A stretch of 21,657 nucleotides of DNA, taken from positions 1 to 21,657 of IMG/VR virus record IMGVR_UViG_3300033064_005047, one strand, 5' to 3'. Each line of letters begins with the position of its first letter. The stretch's first letter is position 1. The translations under genes and the position numbers were made by a program. The notes beneath the pieces were generated by a model, which saw only the letters and a program-made list of their open reading frames with translations, was not told the origin of the DNA and did not search any database. Below are positions 523-13,921 of this stretch, one piece after another. Source of the DNA: a virus.

Positions 523-3500
523 TCAGTCCGAGGGTGGACCAGTTTTGTCTATAAATGTTGACATCGCTGCTGAAGAAAGTGCTTCAAGCAATTCGGCGAA
601 TATTTCTCCACGGCTTCCTGCTGTTCCACCCCTGCCAGCGGTCATTTGTCTATCGATAACAGACATTACGGCATCGAGAATTTTGTCTGCTTCATCTGCG
701 CTTATCTTGATTGACCCAACGTTTGTCCGTTTTGAGTCAGGCTTAAACGCACCCGCCTTGTACTTCGAAATTTTTTGTTGGAGGAGTGTCAACCCATTCT
801 TGACAATGTCATTTTCTGCTTTGCTTAGTTCCCTGGTAAGAGATGAGTCAATTTCTTTCCACCAAGTTGACTCTTTGATGATTTCTGTTCGCGGAGTAAC
901 ACTTCCACTTGACCTAAGCGAACGACTTGAGCGCCTATTGGCGTAAGTTGTCTGAAATTGTCTTGCTTCATCAATCACGGCGCCAAGGTCTCGGATTCTG
1001 ACTGGCCTTGCTCTCCCTGCGCTCCTTAGGTTGCCGCTTCGATATCCAGGCTCTTCGTCACCGTTGTCAACGTCATTTTCATCCGTATCGTAGGAACCCC
1101 CAGACATTCTCATTCGTTCAGATTCGCGTTGCAGTAAATCCTCATTTGCATCCAATTCGCTTTCGCGCTCTTCCATTTCCGAAATGTGTTCGCTAAGCCC
1201 ACCCGAAATTGTTTTTAGTCCTTCGATTGTTTCCTGTTCCTTCTTGGTAAGAGAACTTACTTCTTCTACTTCTGTTTCTTCTTTCCCTGTTTCTTTGTTT
1301 TTCTTCTTAACAGTTCTTTGCGTCTTGGTTATTTTTGGGTCCTCTAAGTCTTTAATCAGAGATTCAATTTTTTCCATGCCATCTTTAATACTTGAAGAAT
1401 CTGGAACGTCGGACTCATCGGCGATAATAATATCGAAATCATCAAGTGCTTCTTTGATGATGTCGGCGAACTTCTTGTCTATGTTCCCTGCTTCTGTTTG
1501 CCTGTCCACGAAAACTCTAACTTTTTCTAATTTGTCGGTGGCTCTTCTGGCGGCTTTTGCATGTTGGGCGCTGTCGGGTTTATCAGGGTCTGTCTCGAAT
1601 TGACGAACGCCTCGTTTGGCCTTCGTCGCCTCGGCTGTGCTTTTCTCCTTTTCAAGTCTTTTCTTCGCTGCTGCTTCGCGCTTTTCCACACGGTCTTTTT
1701 CAATTTTTCTTTCGCGCTCTTCGTTTCTTTGCGCAGCCGTAGGTTGCGTTAATCTTTCCAAGCGGACGCGCCTTTTATCTTGAAGTTCTTCATCACGGGC
1801 CTCGGGGTCCTCAGCCATAGACTGGTCTATAGCCTCTCCCGTAATTTTTCTAATAAGTTTTGCCCATTCAAATGAATCGGGTCTTAGGCCAATAAGGGCT
1901 TCTTCGTTTGACCCTTCGTTACCCGCGCCGTCGGGAGCCGAGTTGAGCCATTTGAGTTTTTCTTCTCCGTTCATTTCGTACCAATTACTTGGGAGAAATT
2001 CCTTTTTAATGAAATCGTCAACGTTCATTACATTATTTCTTCTGGGGCCAAGTACTGGCAACTTCTCACCAGGCCTACCAACAATGTTCGTTCGCTTGCC
2101 TTGAGCAACTCCCTGTCTAGCGGAAGCATTGCCCACACCGCCCTTTGCTCTTTTGTCTATGTTGGTTCTTGTGTATTTTTTATCCGTAAGTACTTGTCTC
2201 AAAATATCGCTAGGCGACCTACCTCTTTTACCAGGCTCCGAACTTCCGTATTTTTCAAAACTTGGGAGAAGTTTTTCAAATTCCTGTTGAACGGAATTGA
2301 GTAATGAAGTTCCGTCGCCCTCGAATAACGCAGGCTGAATCATCTCTCCAACCTTCTTGGCGTTTTTAATAGAGTCACGAAGTTTGACGATTGGATTGTC
2401 ATCCGTTAATTGATTCTCCCCAATAACCGAATCAAGCATTTTAAGGAGTTTTACTTTTTCAGCCCTCGTGAAATTGATATCTATTCGAGGCTTTTCATTT
2501 CCAGTAAGACCCAACGAAGAAGCGAACTTTGGTTTTTTGGGTGTTGAGGCAGGGCCATCGCCAGGAGTGACATTGCTGGGAGGGCCGCCCTCCGAACGCA
2601 AACCCCTCATTCTCGGAATCGCGCGTGACGGGTCTGGTTGCTCCATCCACGTTCCGTCAAAAATTAAACCGTCGCCGTCTATGTCTCGACGTTTTCTTGG
2701 GTCTGTTATTCCTGTTATTTCTGCCAGCGCGGTCCTGCCGCGCCTAACTTTTTTTCCCCCACCACCAATACCTCTTCCAATTCTCCCGAATAGTGCCTTG
2801 GTGGCATTTTCCACCGCGTCGTAGGCGTCTTCGCTAAGGGGTGAGGCAATGACGATTCCGTCTTCACTGACGTATGTTTCAATTCTGTGATAATCGAATA
2901 ATGGGTCAAGCGCTTGTTTTACTTCAAATGCGTACTCTGGGGCGCACGACACAATTAATTCAGATTTTTCCATTTGATGCTGGCTAATCAAGTGTTGCAG
3001 TGAGCCGACAATGCCTGAAAGTTGTTCTACTAAATTCGGCTGTTCGGATAACTGTTCAGCAAGTGACTTCTCGTCGTCTAAATCAAAAAAGCCATTTGCC
3101 GCGGCGTCGGAACCATACTTGACGGGAACCGTCGGCATTGGCGTTGATGGCTTACCTTGCACTGCTGGGAAATTGGGAATTCTTTGTTGTCTGGGACCAG
3201 GATTATTGAGTGCCGAACCAGGACCAACAATCACCATCGGGGAACCCATCTTTTCGGGTTTCCCAAACATGTATTGTTCGCCATCGAAGTAGTAGCCGAG
3301 CCTGAACACCCCTTTGCCTGGCTTCATGAATACCACTGAACTCTCTGTCGCCTTCATGATTTTTACTGGCCCATTTGTTCGTGTCGCCAGTTCCCTCTCC
3401 AGAGCAGCAGACCTATCGCTGCTGGCTGGTTGTGCGATGCCTTGAGCGAAAGGGTCGATTGGGGCATCGGGTTCTTCGGCGACAACCGCCGACGGGCCAC

Positions 3501-4035
3501 CCATCATGCTCATATGCATCTTTTCTGAATCGCTTTTTACAGAAATAGTTCCAGTCAATTGATTTGCGCCGTGGAGAACAGGGCTCAATTCATACAATTC
3601 GACTTCCCTCAAAACGTTTGCTTGACGAGAATTATCAAAAATGGCATCTAGGGTTTTGTACCCAATCGACCATTCTTGTTCTTCGCCAAAAAAGGCAACG
3701 TTGGTAAAGGCTTCTCTGCCTTTTTCCGAATTTAGATTAAACTGCACTTTTGCATAAAGACCACCAACACCAGCACTTTTCATCTTTGATGGCAAACGGG
3801 AGTCATTTGGCGCAACTTCGTATATTTCCAGAACTTTGCCAATTGGGTCATTCCAGTTGTGACCCCAAACCACTCTGGGCTTTCGACGGATAAGGCTCTT
3901 TGCGAATGCACCAGAAATAACAATGTCGCCCACAGAATCCTTATTGCCAATTCCAGCAACGAAACACTCAACAATCCCTTGCGCTTCGTCGATGTTAAAC
4001 TGCCCAGAATTGGACTTAAAGTTTATGTTTTGCAT
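523..4035 (-). CDS. HK97-type prohead protease fused to a very long C-terminal extension
   Basis: The first ~180 residues match the HK97 prohead protease family (peptidase U35), the serine protease that matures the procapsid. Visible landmarks are the GDIVISGAFAKSL segment, the catalytic-type His in VVWGHNW (about residue 59), Ser in EWSIGYK (about 123) and the ELYELSPV segment (about 147-154). Family members are usually near 200 residues; this one has about 1170. The extension holds Pro/Gly-rich linkers, a basic GRGIGGGGKKVRRGR patch, a DIDGDGLIFDGT motif (about 451-462) like a calcium-binding loop, and a highly charged, probably coiled-coil middle (roughly 750-880). It may be a protease-scaffold fusion processed during assembly (inference). 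I chose the ATG at 4033-4035, or the adjacent one at 4036-4038, because AAAGGAT lies just upstream at 4043-4049; the frame could extend to a TTG at 4113, which has no properly spaced ribosome site. Confidence 0.9.
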   Translation of the reverse strand: MQNINFKSNSGQFNIDEAQGIVECFVAGIGNKDSVGDIVISGAFAKSLIRRKPRVVWGHNWNDPIGKVLEIYEVAPNDSRLPSKMKSAGVGGLYAKVQFNLNSEKGREAFTNVAFFGEEQEWSIGYKTLDAIFDNSRQANVLREVELYELSPVLHGANQLTGTISVKSDSEKMHMSMMGGPSAVVAEEPDAPIDPFAQGIAQPASSDRSAALERELATRTNGPVKIMKATESSVVFMKPGKGVFRLGYYFDGEQYMFGKPEKMGSPMVIVGPGSALNNPGPRQQRIPNFPAVQGKPSTPMPTVPVKYGSDAAANGFFDLDDEKSLAEQLSEQPNLVEQLSGIVGSLQHLISQHQMEKSELIVSCAPEYAFEVKQALDPLFDYHRIETYVSEDGIVIASPLSEDAYDAVENATKALFGRIGRGIGGGGKKVRRGRTALAEITGITDPRKRRDIDGDGLIFDGTWMEQPDPSRAIPRMRGLRSEGGPPSNVTPGDGPASTPKKPKFASSLGLTGNEKPRIDINFTRAEKVKLLKMLDSVIGENQLTDDNPIVKLRDSIKNAKKVGEMIQPALFEGDGTSLLNSVQQEFEKLLPSFEKYGSSEPGKRGRSPSDILRQVLTDKKYTRTNIDKRAKGGVGNASARQGVAQGKRTNIVGRPGEKLPVLGPRRNNVMNVDDFIKKEFLPSNWYEMNGEEKLKWLNSAPDGAGNEGSNEEALIGLRPDSFEWAKLIRKITGEAIDQSMAEDPEARDEELQDKRRVRLERLTQPTAAQRNEERERKIEKDRVEKREAAAKKRLEKEKSTAEATKAKRGVRQFETDPDKPDSAQHAKAARRATDKLEKVRVFVDRQTEAGNIDKKFADIIKEALDDFDIIIADESDVPDSSSIKDGMEKIESLIKDLEDPKITKTQRTVKKKNKETGKEETEVEEVSSLTKKEQETIEGLKTISGGLSEHISEMEERESELDANEDLLQRESERMRMSGGSYDTDENDVDNGDEEPGYRSGNLRSAGRARPVRIRDLGAVIDEARQFQTTYANRRSSRSLRSSGSVTPRTEIIKESTWWKEIDSSLTRELSKAENDIVKNGLTLLQQKISKYKAGAFKPDSKRTNVGSIKISADEADKILDAVMSVIDRQMTAGRGGTAGSRGEIFAELLEALSSAAMSTFIDKTGPPSD

Positions 4036-4070
4036 CATTAAATCCTTTTGGCCATCAATAATAGTAAACG

Positions 4071-4101
4071 ACCAAATGTTTGCCCATTGAAGGTATTTGG
4101 T
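4071..4101. repeat. Imperfect inverted repeat in the portal-protease gap
   Basis: ACCAAAT at 4071-4077 pairs with ATTTGGT at 4095-4101 across a 17-nt loop; two more flanking bases pair after two mismatches. It lies in the 97-nt gap 4039-4135 between the portal stop and the protease start. The stem is short and AT-rich and could be chance. It has no U-run, so it does not look like an intrinsic terminator. Confidence 0.25.
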
Positions 4102-4135
4102 TATTATGTCCAACCCTCAAAACAAAATACAGAAA

Positions 4136-6157
4136 CTAGTTTGCGAACACCCAAGCGCGGCGCGCTTCGTTGCTGCAAATTTCTGCTACCGACTTGGCGA
4201 GAATGTTTGAAAAAATGGAAACACAATTCGCCCTAAACACGATGCTTCTCTCCTCTTCTGTTTTTACGCCAAGACTGGTCACGTACGCAGAAGTGAGAGA
4301 GTTATATGTGTTTTCGTTAATCTGTTTAAATCTTTGCATTTGGGCTTCAAGTTGAGCGACAACATCAGACTGGTCAAGGGTTTTCTCTAAATATTCCGAA
4401 CTATCCGAGATAATGGTGGACAGAACTGGCTTTATGTCTTCGTCAAATTGTCTATTCCAAATTTCGGTATTGAAGATTGTGTCAATTGTTAGGGTGCCAT
4501 TCTGTAATGATTTCTTTGCCTTTACCCCGTGGACTTTTTCCAAAGTGACACGCTGTTGCCGTTCGATTGTGCGCTCAAGGGCCCTATTTAATATCGCCGA
4601 CCATCTTTGCAGGGAAACGCTGTCTTCTTTGGTTTCGATAAATCCAAATGCTTCTGCTGAAAGTTGCTGACCTGGTGGCAGTGCGCCACTTTCCATTCCA
4701 GCATCCATTGGAGGCGCTCCAGCCCCCATTTGAGGTGCTGCAGCGTCCATAGGAGGCGCTCCAGCGCCTTGTGGTAACTGGCCACCTGGCGGAACGCCCT
4801 CTCCCGCAAGGGCCCCTGCCATCGTGTTGGGGTCAAGCGGACTTGCATTGGGGTCGGCCATTCCAGGTTCGGCTCCTGGCGGTGGCATGCCAGGCATTCC
4901 CGCCTGCGGTTGCGCTTCCATTTTCTTTTCCGTGTTGGCGATTGGAGTCAAGTTTGGATTCATCAGCAGTGAGTCAGCCAAATCGCTTTCTACTTTTTTG
5001 CGACTGGTGGCTTCGCGATACTCGTTTGTACTGATGAGCCCCATTTGCACTTCGTCCATAAAATATCTTGAGCGTTCCTGTTTATACAAAATTAAGATAG
5101 GAACACTCTCCACGTCGAAGTCAACGTAATTAACTTCATCCAATTCGTCAAATGCTCGGGCCAGCAAATCCAAGTGGGGGAGCATTGTTTCATTCCAAAA
5201 CACTCGGTGCTCTTCTGCTGCGTTGCTGAATGTTCTTCCTGAGGCGTTTCCAATAACAGATTCTGGAACTCCGAATGCGGCAAGGATTTCCTCTTTTTGA
5301 ATTTGACGCATCTGTACATAAGAGGCATCTCTTGGGCTTGCAGAAGTATCAACGTAATCAACGCCTTCATCCGAAGAAATTACCGTTGTGCTGCCAGCCC
5401 TTCCAATATTCCCTCTGAACCTGTTGCGAAGTTCGTCCTTGTCGTCATCATCTATTTCCCCTTTAACAACAAGAATTCCGCCTGGTCTGCCGTCATTAAT
5501 GAGGTAATTTCTATTATAAACTTTTGCTAAGTTTTCAATTTCGATTGCGACGCCAGCAGACTCCATCGGCGTTAAAGATAGATATGGGTCAAGAGGATGG
5601 GGACGACGAATCCAAAGAACATCTTCTGGCTTCATGATTATCCTGTTCCCCGTCGGGAGATTCACCTCATATCCAGAAACGAATTTCTTTGCGTCTGGAA
5701 TTGGCGCTGTGAACTGAGGTGGAAGAAGATTAAGAGCAATCAATCTTCCGTCACGACCTTTGATTTTCTCAACAAAAGCGCCTCGGGAAGACATGAGCAA
5801 TTGCGATGTCAGACGGTACCTAAAGATGAAGGAGTTTTCTCCCTCGTTGGCTTTGGTATTGAATAGTTCAATAAGGGGAGAGCGAAGTGCCCTTCTTCCA
5901 GTAACCACTTCTCCATTTCTTGCATTGTCTTTTCGAAGAATAATCGGAAGTCTTGCTTGATTACCTGCAATTGCATCAACGCATCTTTGAACCCATGTGA
6001 TTTTTTGGAAACCCTCACGGTAAGCCCTTTCGATATCCCACATATCGTGGTACGGCTTGCCGACGCGACCTGGGTCGAGATTTATTGGGGCGCCGACTCC
6101 CAGCGCTTTCACTGCTGAATTGCTCAGCGATTTATTTGAAGATGAGTTCCAAGCCAT
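4136..6157 (-). CDS. Phage portal protein (HK97 family) with Pro/Gly/Met-rich linker and C-terminal helical domain
   Basis: This encodes the dodecameric ring at the capsid vertex through which DNA is packaged and to which the tail attaches. Residues 1-400 have the HK97-portal pattern: an N-terminal DMWDIERAYREGF segment, WVQRCVDAIAGNQARLP (about 55-71), NLLPPQFT (about 143-150), the MKPEDVLWIRRPHP and LSLTPMESA region, NDGRPGGILVVKGEI, and FGVPESVIGNASGRTFSNA. Residues about 417-495 are a low-complexity linker rich in Pro, Gly, Met and Ala with a near-duplicate GAPPMDA unit, followed by a helical domain of ~180 residues. At 673 residues it is longer than typical HK97-type portals (about 400-500); the linker and last domain account for the excess. 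It starts at ATG 6157, 7 nt after the small membrane gene, without a strong ribosome site. The protease gene follows 100 nt downstream. Confidence 0.95.
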   Translation of the reverse strand: MAWNSSSNKSLSNSAVKALGVGAPINLDPGRVGKPYHDMWDIERAYREGFQKITWVQRCVDAIAGNQARLPIILRKDNARNGEVVTGRRALRSPLIELFNTKANEGENSFIFRYRLTSQLLMSSRGAFVEKIKGRDGRLIALNLLPPQFTAPIPDAKKFVSGYEVNLPTGNRIIMKPEDVLWIRRPHPLDPYLSLTPMESAGVAIEIENLAKVYNRNYLINDGRPGGILVVKGEIDDDDKDELRNRFRGNIGRAGSTTVISSDEGVDYVDTSASPRDASYVQMRQIQKEEILAAFGVPESVIGNASGRTFSNAAEEHRVFWNETMLPHLDLLARAFDELDEVNYVDFDVESVPILILYKQERSRYFMDEVQMGLISTNEYREATSRKKVESDLADSLLMNPNLTPIANTEKKMEAQPQAGMPGMPPPGAEPGMADPNASPLDPNTMAGALAGEGVPPGGQLPQGAGAPPMDAAAPQMGAGAPPMDAGMESGALPPGQQLSAEAFGFIETKEDSVSLQRWSAILNRALERTIERQQRVTLEKVHGVKAKKSLQNGTLTIDTIFNTEIWNRQFDEDIKPVLSTIISDSSEYLEKTLDQSDVVAQLEAQMQRFKQINENTYNSLTSAYVTSLGVKTEEERSIVFRANCVSIFSNILAKSVAEICSNEARRAWVFAN
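4704..4765. repeat. In-frame direct repeat in the portal linker
   Basis: A 20-base unit (TCCATTGGAGGCGCTCCAGC, 4704-4723) recurs at 4746-4765 with a single mismatch, spaced 42 bases (14 codons), so both copies are read in the same portal frame. They encode the duplicated GAPPMDA motif in the Pro/Gly/Met linker. This looks like a recent tandem duplication that lengthened the linker. Confidence 0.8.
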
Positions 6158-6164
6158 TTGTTAC

Positions 6165-6344
6165 TTACTCAGCGCCCAATAGATATCCAAAAACTCCACA
6201 AGTGACTCCCGCGACGATAAAACCGACAGGCGGTGCTATAAGAAAGCCTCCTACTGCAGTAAACAGTATAAATGACGCCATCAAGATATTCGCGAAGGTT
6301 CTTCTATTTCCTTTACTTCTAAAAAACGCTAACGCTTTTGTCAT
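6165..6344 (-). CDS. Small protein with two predicted membrane helices
   Basis: This is a 59-residue protein starting at ATG 6342-6344, with GGAG at 6349-6352 (4-nt spacing). A short basic N-terminus (KALAFFRSKGNRR) precedes two hydrophobic stretches at about residues 17-37 and 40-57, separated by APPVG. The open frame continues upstream to 6590, but that part lies antisense to the terminase and lacks the same support, so I use the short form. It sits between the divergent terminase and the portal on the portal's strand. Size and topology would fit a class II holin-like or inner-membrane accessory protein, but no lysis gene is nearby, so function is unassigned. Confidence 0.7.
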   Translation of the reverse strand: MTKALAFFRSKGNRRTFANILMASFILFTAVGGFLIAPPVGFIVAGVTCGVFGYLLGAE

Positions 6345-6382
6345 ATCACTCCAAACTAGTGCATGGGATGGTCTACGATTGA

Positions 6383-7693
6383 ATGATGACGAAAGACTGG
6401 TCAAAAATTCTTGAGTACCTTGAACCCAAAGCACCTTCTTTCTGTCCTGAACAACCGTCAATAAATCAAAGAGTTTTTTTAAGAACCTATTCGATTGAAG
6501 CACTATTCGGGGGCGCTGCAGGAGGGGGCAAGTCTTCGGCGTTATTGATGGCCGCTCTTCAGTATGTTGATATTCCTGGGTATTCGGCAATTTTGTTTAG
6601 AAGAACATTCGCTGACTTGTCCCTGCCTGGTGCGCTAATGGACAGATTCCGAACCTGGGTAAGAAATTACGACGACGTTCACTGGAACAATAATAGTTAC
6701 GTAGCCACCTTTCCATCTGGAGCAAGAATCTCCTTCGGATATCTCAATAACACCAACGATTACCTGCGTTATAAGGGGAGCGAGTTTCAGTTCATCGGCA
6801 TGGACGAAGTAACGGAAATTAGAGAAAATGACTATAGGTACCTGTTTTCACGACTTCGCCGTCCTGCGAGCGGGCCACTGTCGTCCGTCCCCCTTCGGAT
6901 GAGGTGTGCTTCAAACCCAGCCCCGAACTGGGTGCGCCAAAGATTTATTGTTGAGGGTCACGAAAAGGGGAGGGTATTCGTTCCATCACGGCTTACTGAC
7001 AACCCTGGCATTGATGCCGAGTCATATCGACAGGCCCTTTCCGCATTGGACCCTGTAGAGCGCAGGAGGCTGGAAGAGGGAGATTGGTGGTCGACGACGC
7101 TCGGGTCAATGTTTGACCGAACATCCGCAATTATCATAGATGACGGAGAGGTGCCCGTTGTCACATCATCTGCCAAAGTAGTCAGGTTTTGGGACTTGGC
7201 GGCCACCGAGCCCAACCAAGCGACACCAGACCCCGACTGGACGGTGGGGACTCTGATGCTTTTTGACCAAGGTATCGCATACGTACTGGATATTAAGAAA
7301 AAACGGGTCAAATCAGACAAGGTTGAACAATTAATTTATCAGACCGCCTACGAAGATGGAATTGGCGTACCAATCAGGATGGAGCAGGAACCAGGCTCTT
7401 CTGGCAAGGCCCTGGCGGACCAATACGCCAGATACGTTCTGCCAGGATTTGATTTTGGAGCAAGTAGGTCAACTGGAGACAAAATCACAAGAGCAAGGCC
7501 GTTTGCTGCCGCTTTGGCAAATGGGAACGTAAGGGTAGTAAGGGGCACATGGTTGAGTGACTGGCTGGATGAATTGTCTTCGTTTCCTGAGTCAACAAAC
7601 CACGACGACCAAGTGGACTCGGCTGCTGGAGCGTTTAATTATTTAACTGGATTAGGGTTGCCCCAACGTCGAAAAGCCAGTATTGTTGTGTGA
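6383..7693 (+). CDS. terL: Terminase large subunit (packaging ATPase and nuclease)
   Basis: This 436-residue protein drives DNA into the prohead and cuts the concatemer. The ATPase domain has a Walker A loop GGAAGGGKSS (residues 43-52), a Walker B FIGMDE (acidic pair 141-142) and an SNPA coupling motif (177-180). The nuclease domain has the RNase H-like acidic residues expected of the family: Asp in RFWDLAA (271), the EQEPGSSGKA segment (335-342) and HDDQVDS (408-413) near the end. Start: ATG at 6383 or the adjacent ATG at 6386; a stop codon at 6380-6382 in the same frame rules out anything earlier. The ribosome site is weak (GGGATGG further upstream). No small terminase subunit is recognisable beside it. 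It is divergent from the portal and its membrane-protein neighbour, with only 38 nt between them. Confidence 0.97.
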   Translation: MMTKDWSKILEYLEPKAPSFCPEQPSINQRVFLRTYSIEALFGGAAGGGKSSALLMAALQYVDIPGYSAILFRRTFADLSLPGALMDRFRTWVRNYDDVHWNNNSYVATFPSGARISFGYLNNTNDYLRYKGSEFQFIGMDEVTEIRENDYRYLFSRLRRPASGPLSSVPLRMRCASNPAPNWVRQRFIVEGHEKGRVFVPSRLTDNPGIDAESYRQALSALDPVERRRLEEGDWWSTTLGSMFDRTSAIIIDDGEVPVVTSSAKVVRFWDLAATEPNQATPDPDWTVGTLMLFDQGIAYVLDIKKKRVKSDKVEQLIYQTAYEDGIGVPIRMEQEPGSSGKALADQYARYVLPGFDFGASRSTGDKITRARPFAAALANGNVRVVRGTWLSDWLDELSSFPESTNHDDQVDSAAGAFNYLTGLGLPQRRKASIVV

Positions 7694-11101: not shown

Positions 11102-11440
11102 ATGACGAGGTCTGCCCCAATAAGTCAAGTTGAAATAGAACAAGAACTATTACGGTTTATGGACATGCTGGAAACAGAAACAGAAGCCTTTGAAAAATTG
11201 GCTGTTGATTCTGCAAAAAAGGAATCTCTCTTTAAGGCCAATTGGGCAAAAGAATATCTGTCAGCGAAAGGGTCAATCAAGGAGCGTGAGGCTTGGGCCG
11301 ACTACAAGATGGATGACCCACACACTGATTACAAAATTGCGGAGGCCTTGGTGAAATCGAAGAGGGAAAAATTACTGTCCCTGAGGACATCAATGGATTC
11401 GCTTAGGACCCTTAATGCAAATGTTCGGGTTCAGGTATGA
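11102..11440 (+). CDS. Hypothetical coiled-coil-like phage protein
   Basis: This 112-residue charged, helical protein has an AGGAG ribosome site at 11090-11094 (7-nt spacing). Heptad-like spacing of Leu/Met is seen in ELLRFMDMLETETEAFEKL (about 15-33) and in SKREKLLSLRTSMDSLRTL near the end, suggesting a coiled coil or oligomer. The stop overlaps the next start (ATGA at 11437-11440), tying it to the ParB-like gene. No catalytic motif is seen and no function is assigned. Confidence 0.8.
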   Translation: MTRSAPISQVEIEQELLRFMDMLETETEAFEKLAVDSAKKESLFKANWAKEYLSAKGSIKEREAWADYKMDDPHTDYKIAEALVKSKREKLLSLRTSMDSLRTLNANVRVQV

Positions 11441-12231
11441 ACAAAATACATCCCTCCCTTCAGTCAATGGCGTTTCCAATTGAAAAACTTGCTCACCTCG
11501 ACAATAATCCCAGAAAGGGAAACGTCGATGCAATTTCGGCATCCTATGATGAATTCGGTCAAATAAAGCCAATTGTTGTTAGGGATAACGAGGACGGAAC
11601 CGCAACGATAATTGCTGGGAACCACCAAGTTATGGCTGCCAAAAAATTAGGCTGGGACAAAATTGCTGTTGTCTTTATTGACGGCGACGACAAACATGCA
11701 ATTGCCTATGCGTTGGCAGATAACAGAACAATGGAACTTGGTTATACCGACGACGAAATGCTCCAAAAACTACTTGCCGAAGTATCCATTGAATACAGTG
11801 ATTTGTGGACAGGGCTTGGATGGGACGAATTTGAAATGGCCGCAATGGATGAACGAGCGTCAACAAGAGAAAACAATGACATGTCTTTGTCGTCTTATGT
11901 TCCGCCAGTAATTATTGAGCAAACCGATAATTCTGTAACTGATTTTGGGCAACATCTTTCTTCACTGGTAAGAACAGATGAAGACGGCGAAAACAAAATG
12001 ATTGCCTCGACCGACATGGACCAAAAAAACGTTGTTCTTCAAGGTTCTGGGGTCGCGATTCCTGGTTCTGCTCCTCAGGCAATCGTTTCTGTTCAGGTTG
12101 TATTTGATTCTCCAGAACAACAAAGAAGATGGTACGACTTCATCAAGTGGCTGAGGAACGACCCAGCGATTGAGGGAAATACGACATCCGAACGTCTTGT
12201 ATATTTCATTGACTCACACACCAGCGCATGA
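11437..12231 (+). CDS. ParB/Srx-fold protein (IbrB-like), first of two
   Basis: This 264-residue protein has an N-terminal ParB/sulfiredoxin-fold domain. The ParB box appears as FGQIKPIVVRD (40-50) and TATIIAGNHQVMAAKKLG (55-72), followed by YALADNRTMELG (91-102). The usual GxHR nucleotide-binding signature reads GNHQ here, so the Arg is replaced. The second half is different: a linker, then a compact region VVFDSPEQQRRWYDFIKWL (about 219-237). ParB-fold proteins bind or hydrolyse CTP, or act as nucleases or kinases; which applies here is unknown. It overlaps both neighbours by 4 nt and directly precedes a PAPS-reductase-family gene, the IbrB-IbrA arrangement known from E. coli and its phages. 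Confidence 0.88.
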   Translation: MNKIHPSLQSMAFPIEKLAHLDNNPRKGNVDAISASYDEFGQIKPIVVRDNEDGTATIIAGNHQVMAAKKLGWDKIAVVFIDGDDKHAIAYALADNRTMELGYTDDEMLQKLLAEVSIEYSDLWTGLGWDEFEMAAMDERASTRENNDMSLSSYVPPVIIEQTDNSVTDFGQHLSSLVRTDEDGENKMIASTDMDQKNVVLQGSGVAIPGSAPQAIVSVQVVFDSPEQQRRWYDFIKWLRNDPAIEGNTTSERLVYFIDSHTSA

Positions 12232-13370
12232 CAAGGCAAAGACTATTTCTTGATATAAATTGCGTAGAGGCAGCCCGTCAACGCATGCGCCACGTATATG
12301 ACACCTTCGATACGGTATGCATCCAATTCTCGGGAGGAAAAGACTCAACGGCAATTTTGCTTTTGGCAAAAGAGGTCCACGAGGAACGTGGTCTCGGTCC
12401 AGTAAAAGTTATTTTTCGAGATGAAGAAATGGTCAGCCCTGCCGTAATCGAATATGTGGAGTACATACGGAGCAAGCCATGGGTCGACATGGAGTGGTAT
12501 TGCTTGGCTCACGGTTCGGAAATTTGGGTATTGGGACACAGGCAATCAGTGATTCTGTGGAGCGAAAAGCGTCGGAAGGAAGGTCGCCTGGTCAGAGAAA
12601 TGCCACCTTTTGCAATATCGGCCAAAAGTTTTGGAATCAGTGGCCACTCGTATTTGCCAGAACATCCCGACTACTACACAATGCAGGGCAAGAAAGGTAA
12701 TGTTGCTTTCGTAACAGGGGTAAGAGCCAACGAATCGATGGTCAGATATCGCTCCCTTGTTCAGAAGTTACACGAGAACTACATTGTCACTCCATACAAA
12801 ATGAAACGCAAAATGCCGCTCAAGTTTGCAAAGGTCATCTACGACTGGCAGGCGGCAGACGTTTTCAAATTTATTGTCGAAGAACACAATGAGCGCTATT
12901 GTGAGTATTACGACAGAGCCTCGGTTACTGGAAGCAACTCAAGAGTTGGGATTCCATTGCACGCAGTGGCAATCAGGAGACTTGGCGACGTTGTTGCCAC
13001 CGAGCCAGAATTTTACGACAAATTAGTAGAGGTGTTCCCATACATAGATGCTCAATATAAGTATTGGCCATCCTTTGATACAGAAAAACTAGTATCAAAA
13101 TATTCCAAAATGGGTTGGGGCGGCGTCCACGAGTTCATAGATGAATATATGATTGGCGAAACAAATCAACAACGAGCCATGTCCTTCGCAGCCGAATTTC
13201 GCCGCAAGCACATGGCTGACCCCAAATCATACACAATTTACTCATTGGTAAATTCGCTTTTCATGCATTCGATAGCCAGTTCTATGGCCGCAACCCCAAT
13301 TGGTCCAAAAACCAGAGTTCACTCAATGAGGGAAATTGATTCTACAGAAATCACGAAAGAGGGATTATGA
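12228..13370 (+). CDS. PAPS reductase-family PP-loop ATPase (IbrA-like)
   Basis: This 380-residue protein of the phosphoadenosine phosphosulfate reductase / PP-loop superfamily binds ATP or a related nucleotide through the loop FSGGKDSTA (34-42). Other family marks are the VIFRDEEM strand-turn (61-68), TGVRANESMVR (163-173) and KVIYDWQAADVFKFI (202-216). The only Cys are at about 12, 31, 92 and 225, so neither the C-terminal ECGLH-type active-site Cys of true PAPS reductases nor an obvious DndC-type Fe-S Cys cluster is present. A sulfonucleotide reductase role is therefore unlikely; nucleotidyl or adenylyl transfer chemistry is possible (inference). It is sandwiched by ParB-like genes with 4-nt overlaps on both sides (12228-12231 and 13367-13370). 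Confidence 0.9.
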   Translation: MTRQRLFLDINCVEAARQRMRHVYDTFDTVCIQFSGGKDSTAILLLAKEVHEERGLGPVKVIFRDEEMVSPAVIEYVEYIRSKPWVDMEWYCLAHGSEIWVLGHRQSVILWSEKRRKEGRLVREMPPFAISAKSFGISGHSYLPEHPDYYTMQGKKGNVAFVTGVRANESMVRYRSLVQKLHENYIVTPYKMKRKMPLKFAKVIYDWQAADVFKFIVEEHNERYCEYYDRASVTGSNSRVGIPLHAVAIRRLGDVVATEPEFYDKLVEVFPYIDAQYKYWPSFDTEKLVSKYSKMGWGGVHEFIDEYMIGETNQQRAMSFAAEFRRKHMADPKSYTIYSLVNSLFMHSIASSMAATPIGPKTRVHSMREIDSTEITKEGL

Positions 13371-13921
13371 GAATTTTAAAAATAGAATACTTTTCAGTTG
13401 ATTCGCTCAAGAAGGGCGACTGGCACTCCAACCACGTCCTAAGACCAGACCTGCTGACACTGTCGGCATCAATGCAAAAATATGGATTCATCTTCCCTAT
13501 TTTGGTGCGCGCTGAGGACAACGCGATTATTGACGGGTATCACAGATGGATGTTGGCAAAAGATAACCCCAAGATGGCTGCCCGAGTCGGAACTCAAATT
13601 CCTTGCATAGTCCACAATGTCGACACACTTGAAGCGGCGCTGATGCATCTTCAGTTAAATAGAGGCCGTGGAAGTCTGGTCGCCCATAAGGTTGCGGCCG
13701 TGGTCAGGGATTTGATTTTCAGTAACAAATACTCAGAAGAAGACCTCGATTTGCTTCTGTCAATGAAATACGATGAATTAAGTCTGTTGCTTGACGGCAC
13801 GATGATTAAAAAATTGAACACATCCGAGCATAAGTACTCCAGAGCCTGGGTTCCAATTGAGGCTCCCGCGGGAACTGTAGAAAACTTTAAAACGGAACGT
13901 CCTCCAAATCCAGACAGATGA
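13367..13921 (+). CDS. ParB/Srx-fold protein, second of two
   Basis: This 184-residue protein has a ParB-like domain with SMQKYGFIFPILVRAEDN (35-52), then AIIDGYHRWMLAK (53-65), retaining the GxHR motif as GYHR (57-60), then HLQLNRGRGSLVAHKVAAVV (94-113), a helix with the NxxRG pattern of ParB-fold relatives. It lacks the longer C-terminal part of the first ParB-like protein and has a Pro/charged tail. It overlaps the PP-loop gene by 4 nt (ATGA), so the three proteins are probably made together and may form one complex. Its intact GxHR contrasts with GNHQ in the first copy, so the two are probably not redundant. Confidence 0.88.
   Translation: MRILKIEYFSVDSLKKGDWHSNHVLRPDLLTLSASMQKYGFIFPILVRAEDNAIIDGYHRWMLAKDNPKMAARVGTQIPCIVHNVDTLEAALMHLQLNRGRGSLVAHKVAAVVRDLIFSNKYSEEDLDLLLSMKYDELSLLLDGTMIKKLNTSEHKYSRAWVPIEAPAGTVENFKTERPPNPDR

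Follow-up and report, generated by a model that had tools for sequence, protein, structure and literature searches.

The locus and the proteins it encodes

The window analyzed here is a 21,657-base virus fragment from IMG/VR (record IMGVR_UViG_3300033064_005047). Its scanned proteins include a tail sheath, a tube, a terminase, a portal and a head protease, and its source is a contractile-tailed phage. The subject of this work is a run of three genes on the + strand at positions 11437-13921, referred to as ParB1 (11437..12231, 264 residues), PPL (12228..13370, 380 residues) and ParB2 (13367..13921, 184 residues). A first-pass annotation, made from the sequence alone, had described a PP-loop protein between two ParB-like proteins in overlapping genes; the coordinates, the gene order and the 4-nt ATGA overlaps that join the neighbors were all verified.

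Annotations usually assign phage genes of the 3'-phosphoadenosine 5'-phosphosulfate (PAPS) reductase type to auxiliary sulfur metabolism and phage ParB genes to plasmid partition. PPL is a PP-loop ATP-pyrophosphatase with the PAPS-reductase/FAD-synthase fold. It matched Pfam PAPS_reduct (9e-11), the alpha/beta fold agreed, and the PP-loop SGGKDS (residues 35-40; 12330..12347, + strand) was invariant in 64 of 64 homologs. The motif ECG(L/I/V)H of PAPS and APS (adenosine 5'-phosphosulfate) reductases of the CysH type was found in none of the 64, in agreement with the first-pass annotation, which had noted the missing reductase cysteine. With the catalytic Cys present in no homolog, PAPS reduction or sulfate assimilation as the task of an auxiliary metabolic gene was ruled out. 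PPL C225 is nearly invariant (61/64) and is the sole such Cys; the FAD synthase that PPL matches has a Cys at the aligned position.

The structure model of PPL is confident (predicted local distance difference test score, pLDDT, 90.8). Its top PDB match was the PAPS domain of an FAD synthase (Z 17.0, root mean square deviation 3.4, 178 residues), and further matches were to APS reductase (Z 15.1), FMN adenylyltransferase (14.9), CysD (14.7) and MesJ/TilS (12.1). As judged from the model, these matches, which span adenylyltransferases and base-modifying PP-loop enzymes, support an ATP-activation chemistry and leave the choice of substrate open. As in the IbrA/IbrB pair and in YbdN/YbdM of E. 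coli K-12, the PAPS_reduct protein is directly followed by a ParB-fold protein, and PPL shows 21-39% identity to IbrA/YbdN-type proteins. However, the domain DUF3440 (PF11922), which is matched by IbrA from E. coli and from a Streptococcus phage, was absent from the PPL of the window and from those of two other loci (L086 and L082). Thus, PPL is a sister of IbrA and not IbrA proper.

ParB1 matched Pfam ParB_N (1.6e-9), and its fold is backed by a match to a Noc/ParB profile (1.9e-18). Its box II, a degenerate phosphate motif, reads AGNHQ in place of GxxR (residues 60-64; 11614..11628, + strand), as had been pointed out before; the Arg position is Q64 in the window and, across 52 homologs, is Q in 30, R in 15, T in 6 and G in 1. 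ParB2 matched ParB_N at 2e-4, below the Pfam cut-off, and phrog_2159 at 2.7e-27, and is 22-29% identical to IbrB-type proteins. Its box II, also correctly read at first pass, is intact: DGYHR (residues 56-60; 13532..13546, + strand), with D, G and R (R60) conserved in 60/60 homologs. The ParB2 model (pLDDT 88.4) matched a ParB bound to CDP over residues 3-101 (Z 14.0) and aligned with Noc across residues 1-147, including a middle domain resembling a helix-turn-helix (HTH; residues 103-147 of the model; 13673..13807, + strand). Replacement of the box II Arg abolishes nucleoside triphosphate (NTP) binding in ParB-fold proteins (PMC12704722, a survey). Because this Arg is kept in ParB2 and lost in most ParB1 proteins, ParB2 probably serves as a switch operated by nucleotide, with ParB1 as a structural adaptor. 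As to a role in plasmid or chromosome partition, the full-length partition-ParB profile TIGR00180 gave 39.5 and 19.5 bits with the two window proteins, against a cut-off of 58.45, and no parA was recognized among the scanned genes of the window, itself a fragment.

ParB1 also has a C-terminal domain (residues 214-261; 12076..12219, + strand). This domain was absent from 11 other ParB1-type loci. Its 65 records in the phage collection all belong to phages that infect Mycobacterium, Arthrobacter or Bacillus, the three genera in which PPL phages have this domain. Since it was seen exclusively in ParB1 proteins linked to PPL, the domain is a good candidate for the part that docks PPL.

The three genes are conserved together in phages

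In the 80 closest IMG/VR loci, the gene order, as far as the contigs extend, was TerL, annealing protein, exonuclease, HNH, RuvC, UP, ParB1, PPL, ParB2 and a downstream structural gene. Loci of one contig may be listed twice in IMG/VR, so that locus counts are not independent; sets at 70% and 75% were used against this. ParB1 and ParB2 flanked PPL in 51/51 loci of the window clade with both flanks present, and among 73 more distant viral loci, 64 retained ParB1 and 70 retained ParB2. Hence, the arrangement is not a matter of chance, and the linkage is conserved in other phages. The exact ATGA overlap at the ParB1/PPL junction was kept in just 29 of 74 window-clade loci, which indicates that close packing is conserved and not the overlap itself. 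At two window-clade loci a gene is inserted between ParB1 and PPL (L071, 5336-6004; L076, 4719-5411); the L076 copy matches ThyX.

All three genes were found across unrelated phages, namely in isolates infecting Bacillus, Mycobacterium (B3), Arthrobacter and Rhizobium, as well as in a prophage of M. abscessus and in an Amycolatopsis plasmid bearing terminase and portal genes. Rhizobium phage L338C, considered as a two-gene form located after a "DNA methyltransferase," was dropped as such: the latter gene codes for a ParB_N protein, that is, ParB1.

In bacterial chromosomes, a PPL-like and a ParB2-like gene were linked in 78 of 80 loci, and ParB1 was present in 2 of the 80. Neither a methyltransferase nor an HNH-like partner was found with the pairs at these 80 loci. 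The pairs are of the IbrA/IbrB type and, judged by their enterobacterial neighbors, of the YbdN/YbdM type (compare PMC9068703). Because bacterial loci keep the pair mostly without ParB1, whereas viral loci keep all three genes, we regard PPL and ParB2 as the core and ParB1 as a phage-specific third component. The earlier description of an IbrB-IbrA-like system with an extra ParB thus stands as anatomy and has to be amended for PPL, given its position as a sister of IbrA. PPL and ParB2 were not found to occur independently of each other; the N-terminal domain of ParB1 does occur elsewhere. In 21 of the 80 bacterial loci, a gene with a weak SNF2/helicase-like match lies upstream of the IbrA-like gene (e.g., L099, 4757-6004).

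Interchangeable tailoring enzymes next to the core genes

Many relatives carry extra genes between PPL and ParB2 or right behind ParB2, coding for a GNAT protein, a small class-I S-adenosylmethionine (SAM)-dependent methyltransferase or a zinc-binding HNH-like protein; 2-oxoglutarate (2OG) dioxygenases, TauD-type or other, occupy the same operon slot in single cases (L190, L192 and L199). The methyltransferase, phrog_11826, occurred in 18 of 50,697 phage records and adjoined the trio in all 18. Of its 23 loci in IMG/VR, 22 have it next to PPL and ParB2, and the 23rd is truncated at the contig edge. The GNAT gene adjoined PPL and/or ParB2 at 18/18 loci, in a scan based on two alignment rows, the mixed GNAT alignment being too diverse for scanning. 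Methyltransferase and GNAT never occurred together at one locus, and at least 4-7 exchanges between them map to the PPL tree; in Arthrobacter phages, the methyltransferase (Waltz) or the GNAT (Kovu) is found at the identical position after ParB2. Arthrobacter phage Laroye likewise has the methyltransferase in addition to the trio, whereas neither enzyme was seen adjoining the trio of the B3 mycobacteriophages Phlyer and Philly. A swappable modifying enzyme on a constant core is, we infer, a usual signature of a hypermodification pathway.

The zinc HNH-like family (CxxC...HxEDY...CxxCHxxxH; L191, 7393-7884, and relatives, alignment A7) accompanies the tailoring enzymes; it has no meaningful Pfam match and could be a nuclease.

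Exchange with DNA-modification cassettes in Bclasvirinae and reuse of the ParB1 domain

In Bclasvirinae mycobacteriophages, the genes from the genome start to the terminase vary by subcluster. The left end is ParB1-PPL-ParB2 in B3 phages, ParB-Tet/JBP in KayaCho, ParB-Tet/JBP-TAGT-PIG-L deacetylase-kinase in Indlovu, ParB-Tet/JBP-kinase in Stinger, and ParB-TGT-QueC-QueD-QueE-FolE in Laurie, a Rosebushvirus (compare PMC6392294), TGT standing for tRNA-guanine transglycosylase. The ParB domains of the swapped first genes are 47-57% identical to that of B3 ParB1. Gene 2 of KayaCho (L289, 810-1766) and of Indlovu (L290, 809-1687) bears the label "queuine tRNA-ribosyltransferase," which we discarded as a likely annotation error; Tet/JBP was matched instead, below the Pfam cut-off.

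Two of these exchanged cassette types invite comparison with the trio. The DpdA (TGT) and QueCDE-FolE cassettes occupy the same pre-terminase locus with the same ParB domain (47% identity) ahead of the enzyme, and their product in phages of the Rosebush type is known to be dPreQ0, which was shown experimentally to replace about 28% of G in Rosebush DNA (PMC6884629). They differ in that DpdA is a base-exchanging transglycosylase served by a precursor pathway, whereas PPL is a PP-loop ATPase. The hypermodification cassettes with Tet/JBP, TAGT and kinase (Indlovu, Stinger and Tonitrus; for the latter see PMC11955845) likewise have a homologous ParB gene first and the terminase last at this locus, but oxygenase, glycosyltransferase and kinase chemistry takes the place of PPL and ParB2. 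parB likewise comes first in a Rhodococcus phage for which a thymidine hypermodification set is predicted (PMC11955845).

The N-terminus of a ParB-DNA methylase (N6/N4) fusion of a Gordonia phage has this same ParB domain, at 59% identity. In Gordonia phage Fresco (L293), a ParB1-type domain is followed, before the terminase, by an ABC-type ATPase-GNAT fusion (603-1808) and a formyltransferase (1805-2452), a candidate for a further modification cassette. Outside the trio, the examined cases of the ParB1 N-domain accompany other DNA-modification enzymes, with the exception of one fusion to DUF4417 (Gordonia phage Chidiebere; L297, 3432-5015). Because a homologous ParB precedes the swapped cassettes and is fused to a methylase, the N-domain of ParB1 seems to be a partner shared by DNA-modifying enzymes of differing chemistry, with PPL in the place of the enzyme.

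In Pseudanabaena phage Pam4 (L298, 3381-5870), a single protein of 829 residues unites an N-domain of the ParB1 type with a match to N6/N4 DNA methylases and a domain of pyridoxal phosphate-dependent enzymes. Possibly, this is a one-protein hypermodification enzyme.

A candidate DNA-modification cassette

The tailoring slot, the exchange with known DNA-modification cassettes and the fusion of the ParB1 domain to a DNA methylase together suggest that the trio modifies DNA, and we think it probable that the three genes form the core of a cassette for modifying bases of phage DNA. The mechanism we propose is as follows. ParB2, with its nucleotide-binding ParB domain and HTH, and ParB1, which has lost the phosphate-binding Arg and carries the PPL-specific tail, would keep PPL on the phage DNA as adaptors. 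PPL would use its intact PP-loop to yield AMP and pyrophosphate, activating a base, or a group borne by it, as an adenylate. A nucleophile would then be attached, an amine or an amino acid being likelier than sulfur; the step with the least support is which substrate is used and what group is added. Where present, the tailoring enzyme may methylate (SAM-methyltransferase), acylate (GNAT) or, occasionally, hydroxylate (2OG dioxygenase) the added group. The product could shield phage DNA against restriction by the host or regulate its expression. It also seems possible, more tentatively, that the trio stands for a widespread and so far undescribed class of phage DNA hypermodification in which PPL, under the guidance of two ParB proteins (one that binds nucleotide and one degenerate), installs a new base group that is then subject to interchangeable methylation, acylation or hydroxylation, and that, by extension, the bacterial IbrAB and YbdNM pairs are DNA modifiers.

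A precedent for this role of PPL exists in the CmoX/CmoY carboxymethylcytosine system, in which CmoY, a phage homolog of asparagine synthetase, adenylates a DNA base substituent, and with which ParBc genes co-occur (PMC12783734). Both would involve an ATP-dependent, AMP-forming enzyme acting on a base substituent. However, CmoY acts after a cytosine carboxymethyltransferase, whereas PPL is a PAPS-reductase-fold protein, and CmoX/CmoA went unrecognized in its neighborhood.

Several observations weigh against a DNA-modification role. The GNAT and the methyltransferase were discovered through trio loci, so that their independence as evidence covers their mutual exclusivity and not their discovery. 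The clade of the window (19 representatives, support 100, on a long branch of 1.77) is without a tailoring gene, and methyltransferase, GNAT and thymidylate synthase were all below the cut-off in 12 long contigs of this clade, records that are possibly fragments, with the methyltransferase searched for without a positive control. The extension to the lineage of the window would follow from core anatomy shared across that long branch. The Tet/JBP matches in the exchanged cassettes, that of Stinger included, fall below the Pfam cut-off, and the fold of PPL is also compatible with an adenylyltransferase working on a small molecule. Furthermore, the bacterial relative IbrAB has been described as a co-activator of gene expression. 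For the phages with the trio, DNA modification is a reading of genes and models and is unproven.

The description of IbrAB leads to a different view, in which the pair and ParB1 would together regulate genes of the host or of a prophage, with PPL making a small nucleotide signal or modifying a regulator and the HTH-bearing ParB2 acting on promoters. Deposited records annotate IbrB/IbrA as co-activators of prophage gene expression, ParB2 has its HTH-like domain, and the chromosomal ybdNM pair of E. coli K-12 is under its own LysR regulator (PMC9068703). We consider such a function unlikely, however: it accounts neither for the interchangeable methyltransferase/GNAT/2OG slot nor for the swapping of the trio and DNA-modification cassettes at one locus, and an effect on expression could itself stem from DNA modification. 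A modification of RNA, protein or free nucleotides, for instance in counter-defense through tRNA, deoxynucleotides or a signal nucleotide and with NTP-dependent ParB proteins as partners, would be in keeping with the common substrates of PP-loop enzymes (tRNA or small molecules), with FAD synthase and APS/PAPS reductase as the closest folds of PPL, and with the various NTPs bound by ParB-fold proteins (PMC12704722). That ParB1 and ParB2 belong to the DNA-associated type of ParB, that ParB2 has an HTH-like domain and that the ParB1 N-domain serves elsewhere with a DNA methylase and with Tet/JBP-glycosyltransferase cassettes makes this quite improbable.

The third alternative concerns the DNA backbone. 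DndC and DndB also form a pair of a PAPS-reductase-fold PP-loop protein and a ParB-fold protein (PMC10853773; PMC11662687), and PPL gave weak DndC/BrxP matches, so that one might envisage a reduced, Dnd-like phosphorothioation with PPL in the place of DndC, the ParB proteins in that of DndB, and sulfur supplied by the host IscS. Yet the NCBIfam profile for DndC (TIGR03183) gave PPL 23 bits against a cut-off of 290, the cluster cysteines of DndC were unmatched, with C225 as the lone conserved Cys, and no DndD- or DndE-like genes were recognized among the recurrent neighbors. The trio differs further in having two ParB proteins and, in its relatives, tailoring enzymes, whose methyl or acyl transfer is ill-suited to a phosphorothioate. 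With the profile match weak and the cysteines unmatched, Dnd phosphorothioation was rejected, and we regard sulfur chemistry at the backbone in general as very improbable.

The first-pass annotation had offered nucleotide transfer, DNA modification and host control as roles for the trio. DNA modification is now independently supported by the tailoring genes, the cassette exchange and the methylase fusion, and host control stays as a rival. The observation itself is confirmed, and its interpretation, partly supported, can be narrowed to that of a candidate cassette for DNA modification. In the open literature, we found no paper that treats the trio as a DNA modifier, and none on the biochemistry of IbrAB. 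If the DNA-modification reading is true, hundreds of phages would carry an unrecognized DNA modification, the long-unexplained IbrAB/YbdNM pair would gain a testable function, and ParB1 would be a general adaptor subunit common to chemically different DNA-modifying enzymes. The reading can be put to a direct test by mass spectrometry of nucleosides from phages cultured on harmless hosts: B3 mycobacteriophages (grown on M. smegmatis), Arthrobacter Laroyevirus and Bacillus 022DV001.

Neighboring genes in the window

Upstream of ParB1, and joined to it by a 4-nt ATGA overlap, lies UP (11102..11440, + strand), which codes for a protein of 112 residues matching phrog_1389 (function unknown). UP is present in the clade of the window and is probably not a member of the general system. 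At 523-7693, the head protease, which has a very long C-terminal extension, and the portal are encoded on the - strand, and the terminase and the remainder on the + strand.

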